Assembly (NCBI GenBank): GCA_903835655.1
Contig: CAILNT010000058.1
Coordinates: 1-64,000, forward strand
DNA from: an uncultured Pseudomonadota bacterium
GTDB taxonomy: Bacteria > Pseudomonadota > Gammaproteobacteria > Burkholderiales > Thiobacillaceae
Direction of reading: 5' to 3'
Length of the DNA: 64,000 bases
Positions 14,380 to 17,103 of the stretch are shown here, in pieces. The notes beneath the pieces were generated by a model, which was not told the DNA's origin, ran no database searches, and saw only the letters and a program-made list of their open reading frames with translations. The position numbers and the translations under genes were made by a program. Each line of letters opens with the position of its first letter. The first letter of the stretch is position 1.

Positions 14380-17103
14380 TCAGACGACGACGTTGACCAG
14401 GCGGCCCGGCACGACCACGACTTTCCTGGCCGGCCTGCCTTCCATGAACTTCTGGACTTCCGGGCTGGCGAGGGCGGCCTGTTCGATGGACGCGCTGGAA
14501 GCCTCCACCGCCACCTTGATCTTGCCGCGCAGTTTTCCATTCACCTGGAGCATCAGCTCGATCTCATCCCTCACCAGCGCGGACGCATCCACCACGGGCC
14601 AGGCCACGTCCGACGAACGAGCTCCCGGCCGCAGCGCCGCGATCAGGCTGCCACAGATGTGCGGCACGATGGGGGACAACATCAGGACGATGGCTTCCAG
14701 GGCTTCCTGCTTCAACGCGCGCGTGGGCGCATCTCCTCCCTCCAGCCTGGACACCGCGTTCATCAGTTCCATATTGGCGGCGATGGCGGTGTTGAATTGG
14801 CGACGACGTTCGATGTCGTCGCTGACCTTGGCGATGACGGTGTGGAGCATGCGGCGGAAATCGCGCAGCTGTGACGGGAGTTCCCTCTCCCCCAGCCCCG
14901 GGGAGGGAGAGGGGGCGGTGACGTGCTCGTGCACCATTTTCCACAGGCGCCGCAGGAATCGGTTGGCGCCCTCGACACCGGCATCGCTCCATTCCAGCGA
15001 CTGTTCCGGCGGGGCGGCGAACATCATGAACAGGCGCGCGGTGTCCGCGCCGTACTGGTCGATCAGCGATTGCGGATCGACGCCGTTGTTCTTCGACTTC
15101 GACATTTTTTCGCTGCCACCCTCCTGCACCGGCTGGCCGTCGGCCTTCAGCAACCAGACGCCGTCGCGTTGCTCCACATCGGCCGGGTTGATCCACTGCT
15201 TCCGGCCTTCGCCCAAATCGCGGTAATACGTGTCGGCGATCACCATGCCTTGGGTCAACAGATGGGTGAAGGGCTCGCTGGTCGACAGTTTTACCCCCAG
15301 TTCGGACTTCTGGTCCGAACGGCCCTCCGAGGGGGCCAAGTCGATCTTGGGGCTGCCCGGCGATCGACTTGGCAGGTCCACATCGCGCATCAGCTTGTGA
15401 AAGAAGCGGGCATAGAGCAGGTGCAGGATGGCGTGTTCGATGCCGCCGATGTACTGATCGACCGGTAGCCAGTAGTTGGCGCGCTCGTCGAGCATGGCCG
15501 TGTCGTTGTCTGGACAGGTGTAGCGGGCGTAGTACCAGGACGACTCGACGAAGGTGTCCATGGTGTCGGTCTCGCGTTCGGCCGGTCCGCCACATTTCGG
15601 GCAGGTCGTCTCATAGAACGACGGCATCTTCTTGATCGGCGAACCGATGTCTATCTTCACCGCCTCGGGCAGCACCACCGGCAATTGATCCTCCGGCACG
15701 GTGACGTCGCCGCAGCGAGAACAGTGCACGATGGGAATGGGGCAGCCCCAATAGCGCTGCCGGCTGACCCCCCAGTCGCGCAGGCGATAGGTGGTGCGCT
15801 TCTTGCCCAGCCCCAGGTTCTGCAACACCAGGGCGATCTTCTCGATGGCATCCTGTGAGGCTCGCCCGGAGAAGTCGCCGGAGTCGAACAGGATGCCGGG
15901 TTCCACGTAGGCTGCGGTCGGTGAGAGGCCGGGTTCGCCGTCCACCGGCCGGATCACCGGCTTGATCGGCAGCCCGTATTTCCCGGCGAAAGCAAAATCA
16001 CGTTCGTCGTGGGCCGGCACTGCCATGACCGCACCTTCCCCGTATCCCATCAGCACGTAGTTGGCGACGAACACGGGAACCGGCTCGTTGGTCAATGGGT
16101 GGTAAACCACCAGACCGGTATCCATGCCCTTCTTTTCCATGGTCGCCATGTCGGCCTCGGCCACACTCCCCTGCTTGCATTCGCCGATGAAGGCGGCGAG
16201 CTCCGGCTGAGTGGCCGCCGCCCGGGTGGCAAGCGGGTGCTCGGCGGCGACCGCCACGTAGGTGACGCCGAACAAGGTATCGGCGCGGGTGGTGAAAACC
16301 TTGAGAACATCGCCCTCGCCAGCCCCCTCACCCTCAGCCCCTCTCCCGCCTGCGGGCGAGGGGAGCGTCGTGCTCCCCTGTGGGGAGGTTGCCGACAAGG
16401 GAAAATGAATCTCCACGCCGAAACTCTTGCCGATCCAGTTCCGCTGCATGGTCTTCACCCGTTCCGGCCAGCCGGGCAGGTTGTCGAGTTCGCTCAACAA
16501 CTCGTCGGCATAGGCGGTGATGCGGAAGAAATACATCGGGATGTCGCGCTTTTCGACCAGGGCGCCGGAGCGCCAGCCGCGCCCTTCGATCACCTGCTCG
16601 TTGGCCAGCACGGTGCGGTCGACCGGATCCCAGTTCACCGTCGCCATCTTCTTGTAGATCAGTCCCTGCTCGAACAATCGGGTGAACAGCCATTGCTCCC
16701 AGCGGTAGTAATTCGGCTTGCACGTCGCCAGTTCACGGCTCCAGTCGACCGCCAGCCCCAGGCGCTTCAGCTGTCCGCGCATGTAGTCGATGTTGGCGTA
16801 GGTCCAGCCGGCCGGCGCCACGTCGTTGGCCAGGGCGGCGTTTTCCGCCGGCAGTCCGAAGGCGTCCCAGCCCATGGGCTGCAACACGTTGTAGCCCTTC
16901 ATGCGGTGATAGCGCGCCAGCACATCGCCTATCGTGTAGTTGCGCACGTGGCCCATGTGCAACTTGCCCGACGGGTAGGGAAACATGGACAGGCAATAGT
17001 ACTTGGGCCTGGAGGCGTCCTCCGTGGCGCGGAAGCACTGCGTGTCTTCCCAGTGCTGCTGAGCTTCCGGCTCGATGATTTCCGGGCGGTATTGAGCGTC
17101 CAT
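14380..17103 (-). CDS. leuS: Leucyl-tRNA synthetase with three repeat-encoded insertions
   Basis: A 907-residue class I synthetase, against about 860 in E. coli. [14 protein letters not shown] is the HIGH motif, the CP1 editing domain holds the threonine-rich TTRADTLFG, and [11 protein letters not shown] is the KMSKS loop. Three stretches have no family counterpart: about residues 233-262 ([16 protein letters not shown]), 575-605 ([15 protein letters not shown]) and 725-740 ([12 protein letters not shown]). Each is encoded by palindromic DNA listed separately, and all keep the frame. They fall between strands or helices, so the enzyme is likely active. ATG at 17103 gives the usual start [11 protein letters not shown]; a longer frame upstream is not conserved. 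Confidence 0.96.
14883..14913. repeat. Palindromic insertion 3 inside leuS
   Basis: CCCTCTCCC (14883-14891) pairs with GGGAGAGGG (14905-14913) around a CCAGCCCCG-containing loop. In leuS it encodes the [11 protein letters not shown] stretch. The sequence is of the CCCTCTCCC...GGGAGAGGG intergenic repeat type common in high-GC proteobacteria, here inside a gene. Confidence 0.7.
15301..15372. repeat. Palindromic insertion 2 inside leuS
   Basis: Three nested hairpins: TTCGGAC/GTCCGAA (15301-15307 with 15313-15319), GGCCCTC near-paired with GAGGGGGCC, and CCAAGTCGATC/GATCGACTTGG (15336-15346 with 15362-15372, a perfect 11 bp). It encodes the 575-605 region of leuS, where other synthetases pass directly from KLMRD to the SDEPF-like segment. 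Confidence 0.72.
16338..16378. repeat. Palindromic insertion 1 inside leuS
   Basis: CCCCTCTCCCG (16338-16348) pairs with CGGGCGAGGGG (16353-16363) with one mismatch, and GGGGAGC/GCTCCCC (16360-16366 with 16372-16378) forms a second stem. It encodes the glycine-rich [16 protein letters not shown] segment at the entrance of the CP1 editing domain of leuS. Confidence 0.72.

Follow-up and report, generated by a model that had tools for sequence, protein, structure and literature searches.

The leucyl-tRNA synthetase gene (leuS) in the window, as we call the whole 64,000-nt stretch of DNA analysed here, carries palindromic repeats that preserve its reading frame at three loops of the protein. The repeats of loops 1 and 2 belong to two families, A and B, that recur in the genome from which the window comes (G000) and across its genus, and several families occupy the same loops in related genomes. 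We think it likely that A and B are mobile, non-autonomous palindromic repeats whose in-gene copies survive in exposed, dispensable loops and then turn over.

The open reading frame, its length and its identity had been called correctly in the original prediction: leuS encodes a full-length bacterial LeuRS (TIGR00396 match, 1088.9 bits). The HMGH and KMSKS regions, presumably the LeuRS motifs of those names, are invariant or nearly so. Loop 1 lies in what we take to be the CP1 editing domain, and loop 2 presumably lies ahead of the leucine-specific domain. The coordinates of the gene, the loops and the repeats are collected in Table 1.

Table 1 Position of leuS, its three palindrome-bearing loops and the associated repeats in the window
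Feature	Position	Strand	LeuRS residues	Description
leuS	14380..17103	-		leucyl-tRNA synthetase, 907 aa, frame intact
Loop 1	16312..16395	-	237-264	in-frame family A insert, +20 aa
Family A repeat of loop 1	16316..16392	+		core CCCTCACCC..CCCCTCTCCCGC..GCGGGCGAGGGG, then small palindrome GGGGAGCGTCGTGCTCCCC
Loop 2	15286..15375	-	about 577-606	family B insert, +28 aa, common to G008
Family B main palindrome of loop 2	15335..15373	+		GCCAAGTCGATC...GATCGACTTGGC
Second palindrome of loop 2 insert	15301..15319	+		TTCGGACTTCTGGTCCGAA
Loop 3	14881..14913	-	731-741	family A-like palindrome replacing the native loop, +1 aa only, common to G008
Inverted repeat upstream of leuS	17215-17262			imperfect, AAACGAAACGCGAAAT / ATTTCCCGTTTCCTTT

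Loop lengths were compared across 30 rows (L001-L030). Loop 1 measures 30 residues against a commonest length of 10 (15/30 rows), loop 2 measures 36 against 8 in 22 rows, and loop 3 measures 15 against 14, also in 22 rows. Loop 3 is only one residue above the usual length and is therefore a replacement, a weaker case than loops 1 and 2. Three insertions had been predicted; three palindrome-bearing stretches do exist, but they amount to two length gains plus one replaced loop. The expectation that in-frame repeats form hydrophilic loops was supported.

The nearest relative of this leuS, from G008, is 94% identical and has loops 2 and 3 in common with it but not loop 1. Loop 1 of G008 also differs from the common ancestral form, and we therefore dropped the dating of loop 1 by its absence there; judged from the aligned sequences, the insert may be older than that absence implies. 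The proposal that the repeats are still spreading is for this reason only indirectly supported.

In the AlphaFold model of LeuRS (mean pLDDT 82.1), confidence falls below 50 at residues 241-263 (loop 1), 584-602 (loop 2) and 734-736 (loop 3), as well as in two further short stretches (313-315 and 317-321). Each of the three loops is flanked by secondary structure elements in the model; loop 1 connects two strands of the editing domain and loop 3 sits between two helices. LeuRS residues were mapped to structure 6q89.

Repeats elsewhere in the genome, including in other genes, had been anticipated, and this was borne out for families A and B. The loop 1 stretch gave at least 45 matches in its own genome, four of them antiparallel duplicates, leaving at least 41 places including itself; with 40 of the 62 candidates scored, this count is a lower bound. 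At least 42 distinct family A places, window copy included, were examined in G000. The family is dispersed through the genome with intergenic copies too, and the leuS copy lies within a conserved gene whose reading frame is preserved on either side of it. The family A consensus had matches in 22 of the 23 genomes of the genus, with 2 to 52 in each where present (at least that many in some). The loop 2 stretch recurs at four other places in G000, where the family B consensus has nine matches; family B is present in 20/23 genus genomes. The loop 3 stretch had weak matches only elsewhere in its own genome (best E 0.004), and its core match reached a z of 4.9 in G000 and lay below threshold in G008. 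Allowing one mismatch, the bare motif CCCCTCTCCC occurs 12 times in the window against 7.8 expected, a count reached by 13 of 100 shuffles, so that there is no clear enrichment. Four family A copies (in L117, L118, L119 and L147) are each found no more than about 200 bases from a G000 contig end, suggesting that the repeats probably break the assembly and that copy numbers are lower bounds.

We assigned the 42 family A places by hand with an improvised gene finder, checking the lpdA linker separately, to 22 intergenic positions, nine gene starts or edges, seven positions inside conserved proteins, three probably inside and one at a C-terminus (in a copper ATPase). The seven clear in-gene hosts, in which a protein family match spans or flanks the repeat, are a PLP aminotransferase, waaF, an NDP-sugar dehydrogenase, acnA, glnE, lpdA (between the lipoyl and FAD domains) and leuS. 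leuS is not special in this respect, as family A also lies inside the six other conserved proteins of the same genome. The three hosts rated as probable are a drmD-like helicase and two DNA methyltransferases, in which a domain is matched on just one side of the repeat. Copies of family A that precede yajQ, nifK and nifX, and one of family B that precedes an ntrC-like gene, were excluded as in-gene copies because the family match begins after the repeat.

Family A takes two forms in G000, a core of ~42 nt within genes and a longer form between genes, extended by a right arm and in many cases by a left arm too. The right arm, scored by Smith-Waterman against consensus sequences selected after the copies had been seen, was present in all but one of the 22 intergenic copies, the odd one out being truncated at a contig end, and in 0 of the 10 internal and probable in-gene copies. 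It was also present in seven of nine gene-start or edge copies and in the C-terminal copy, and none scored above threshold in the leuS, acnA and waaF loops examined in kin. This contrast is imperfect, as the copies upstream of nifX and nifK are without the right arm although they lie outside the conserved part of the gene. Stop codons were rejected as the sole cause of the missing arm in genes because the consensus with the arm still has open frames; for the commonest A form, three of six frames are open with the right arm versus five of six for the core.

Comparison with kin revealed that the same loops hold different elements. For loop 1, the A core was detected in 12 of 13 long loops (G031 failed) and in 0 of 16 short loops tested, a contrast that is partly trivial because short loops cannot hold the whole core; the remaining four of the 33 stretches were under 45 nt and too short to score. 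By eye, the core runs forward in G019 and G006 and in reverse in G000 and others. Relatives with the same loops free of palindromic DNA had been named in advance as evidence against the original prediction, and the long loops mostly displayed the opposite, with G031 and the moderately longer loops of Neisseria and others as exceptions.

Loop 2 of leuS holds B in G000 and G008 and A in G035 and G024 (scored), and by eye A also in L042 and L051. Loop 3, scored in nine chosen genomes, holds A in G000 and a CCCCCCTTT..AAAGGGGGG type in G011; by eye, A was read in L042, L047 and L073, and the CCCCCCTTT type in L038 and L043. Near residue 390, A occurs in L052, a Gallionella record, and two other palindrome types occur in G031/G014 and in G024/G015/G029 (all by eye). 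Strict patterns of these two types were found elsewhere in only 2/23 and 1/23 genomes and were absent from G000, which leaves them weakly supported as families. By eye, the imperfect inverted repeat upstream of leuS in the window resembles the residue-390 type of G031 and G014. Family B was read by eye at another place in the G011 leuS, near residue 790. In the waaF loop near 147-165, scoring found A in five rows and the CCCCCCTTT..AAAGGGGGG type in L198, L200 and L205; in the acnA loop at 411-433 it found A, which by eye occurs there in both orientations. The acnA loops of G008, G020 and G001 resemble eroded remnants by eye, and many of the same-loop statements outside the genus were likewise read by eye.

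Hairpins with a stem of at least 11 numbered 19 in four leuS loops (4.83 per kb) versus 25 elsewhere in leuS (0.30 per kb) across 33 genomes, a comparison that is partly circular since the four loops were selected partly for variability and for palindromes already seen. The elements in loop 1 of G014, G007 and G012 look nested. Exact insertion junctions were sought from kin in acnA and waaF and none was definable, the loops being replaced and not split; junctions and target duplications of A and B cannot be defined because the loops are overwritten. The variety of families and orientations found at the same loops suggests that repeats have come again and again into loops that tolerate them. 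On any tree, leuS loops 2 and 3 and the loops of acnA and waaF must each have been entered more than once, since each is occupied by unrelated families or orientations.

We interpret these patterns as follows. Families A and B would spread in this betaproteobacterial genus as small non-autonomous palindromic repeats, transposed by a separate mobiliser and landing mainly between genes. Copies within genes would be neutral and persist only at exposed, dispensable protein loops when the frame is kept, and a surviving palindrome would be translated as a linker rich in Pro, Gly, Ser and Glu. LeuRS loops 1 and 2 would be such survivors. Nested insertion, deletion and drift would then turn the loops over until the ancestral sequence is overwritten, as may be the case for loop 3 and the acnA loop.

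A single old insertion per loop, subsequently lost, eroded or passed between species by exchange of leuS alleles, appears to us a plausible but unlikely alternative. It would account for the extended loop 1 element common to G000 and L036 (taken to be G014), for the mosaic leuS of some kin and for the eroded-looking acnA loops of the three genomes named above. However, a single insertion cannot explain why one loop holds different families or opposite orientations, and a NERHQDGGE-like motif is kept in many uninserted loops. Mapped onto a tree of 39 tips, the 12 carriers of loop 1 require 10 changes, about the shuffled-label level (mean 10.5), and the four carriers of loop 2 require two; the carriers were assigned by hand, with G031 counted despite its failed core match and G027 omitted although it passed, and the 39-row counts omit the fragmented leuS of G005 and G025 and the second partial leuS of G004. 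From one set of 20 stretches, L168-L173 were left aside. The leuS of G015 is a mosaic whose nearest counterpart is G009 over residues 80-330 and G020 or G014 in most of the other intervals, so that some of the scatter of repeats among species is, on this comparison of sequences, probably allele exchange.

Beyond repeated entry of mobile repeats into tolerant loops, we consider, with considerable doubt, that the loops are landing pads in which a resident palindrome attracts palindromes of unrelated families, the short in-gene form being distinct from the long intergenic form. If this is true, housekeeping proteins throughout a bacterial order would have the same surface loops systematically overwritten by selfish repeats. 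The nested-looking elements in loop 1 of the three genomes named above would fit this reading.

The original prediction proposed a search for a RAYT transposase, and its suggestion that such an enzyme moves the leuS repeats as REP elements now seems improbable. We identified two Y1_Tnp matches in G000 and 58 in the genus, of which 23 loci were compared, some of them cut by contig ends. G000 does have a RAYT with a repeat of its own: in L153 (frame 1716-2417, minus strand), GTAG-type repeats lie on both sides of the domain, within the listed frame. This RAYT sits between hsdM and hsdS frames (L153:566-3839; G000:C4:8500-12500), and the repeat peptide VGAGLKPAPT is in frame in both. Only this third, GTAG family flanks a RAYT as in a REPtron; A and B do not. 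Only one of the 23 RAYT loci, L129, has A nearby, at a distance of about 850 bp; B was near none, and no mobiliser of A or B was found in this comparison. GTAG REPs have a stem of 5-13 bp and CGTC REPs one of 8-9 bp, with an unpaired tag at one end (PMC3733652). Compared by eye with Table 1 of that source, the in-gene A copies and B carry no unpaired GTAG or CGTC end tag. Part of the long A copies have CGTC downstream of the core, and the rest have CTTC or another sequence (by eye). In L129 (L129:1435-3099; G000:C8:44000-49500), one open frame combines a RAYT-like Y1_Tnp domain with a uracil-DNA glycosylase domain. Its surroundings contain repeated AQASLPAS/GRDACAT-like peptides, and Y1_Tnp frames of comparable length occur in several kin.

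RNA folding was compared with 200 shuffles of each loop and gave z scores of -2.50 for loop 1, -4.11 for loop 2 and -0.94 for loop 3. As 38 of the shuffles fold as well as loop 3, its fold is within the range of its composition; for the palindromes of loop 2, shuffles predict an expected number of 0. The better-than-shuffled mRNA folds of loops 1 and 2, and the refilling of the same loops in many species, would suit loops selected for function, for example as an mRNA hairpin pacing translation or as a new binding surface. We regard such selection as very unlikely, since short loops are common among kin, the inserts vary in sequence, family and orientation and fall in low-confidence parts of the model, and the same elements occur in unrelated enzymes. 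That there are no mobile repeats at all, only native variable loops of biased composition, chance palindromes or assembly error, is barely credible: Neisseria and other loops do vary in length without repeats and the loop 3 fold is unexceptional, but dozens of similar copies elsewhere count against it for loops 1 and 2, loop 2 is also found in a second genome (G008), and no stop interrupts the leuS matches underlying L001-L030.

In-frame repeats within genes, tRNA synthetases included, are of a kind already known from rickettsial palindromic elements (RPE) and from intragenic REPs. Di Nocera et al. (2013, PMC3733652) describe short palindromic repeats that are mostly intergenic, with some in conserved genes. 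They report REPs in tRNA synthetases of X. oryzae, E. litoralis and S. alaskensis and inside Thauera genes, double REP insertions in uvrA, and different REPs at about the same recB site in two Xanthomonas. The view of in-frame palindromes as a hallmark of Rickettsia, on which the original prediction drew, is therefore too narrow. The REPs covered there are GTAG- or CGTC-tagged, whereas the in-gene A copies and B are untagged, and in our material several unrelated families share the leuS, acnA and waaF loops across one genus and beyond. The RAYT-associated GTAG REPs (REPtrons) are represented in G000 by the third family, which is distinct from the leuS repeats.

Like RPE, which are tolerated as extra peptides (PMC2229807 and PMC3733652), families A and B are palindromes found between genes and in frame in conserved proteins, where they would be tolerated in the same way. 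RPE are rickettsial and given as 105-146 bp long in PMC2229807; set beside that description, the ~42-nt in-gene A core and its betaproteobacterial host differ. PMC2229807 also treats ERIC, NEMIS and Yersinia palindromic sequences, which are MITEs with open frames and, like A and B, are non-autonomous repeats fused in frame to genes. TA-ended terminal inverted repeats and target duplications are features of MITEs; A and B show palindromic cores, and the overwritten loops obscure the junctions at which such features would be read.

No report of repeats in the leuS loops of this group was found among our literature search results. What seems new is that the families are untagged, how dense they are, and that in several genes the same loops are filled again and again. 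This widens the range of in-frame palindromic repeats beyond Rickettsia and tagged REPs to include untagged families in betaproteobacteria. The comparative series spans one genus, three genes and five leuS loops, and in it the entry, nesting and erosion of selfish DNA in essential proteins can be traced. A small number of tolerant places in ordinary proteins thus seem to be rewritten by palindromic repeats time after time. Whether inserts merely persist where they are tolerated, or whether repeats target one another and so steer the evolution of protein loops, becomes a testable question.

The region near leuS residues 624-665 also varies widely, from 2 to 47 residues with a median of 41 across the 39 rows. 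The LeuRS of G044 and G050 (L165 and L028) are short, at 814 and 816 aa, and may have lost the leucine-specific domain.
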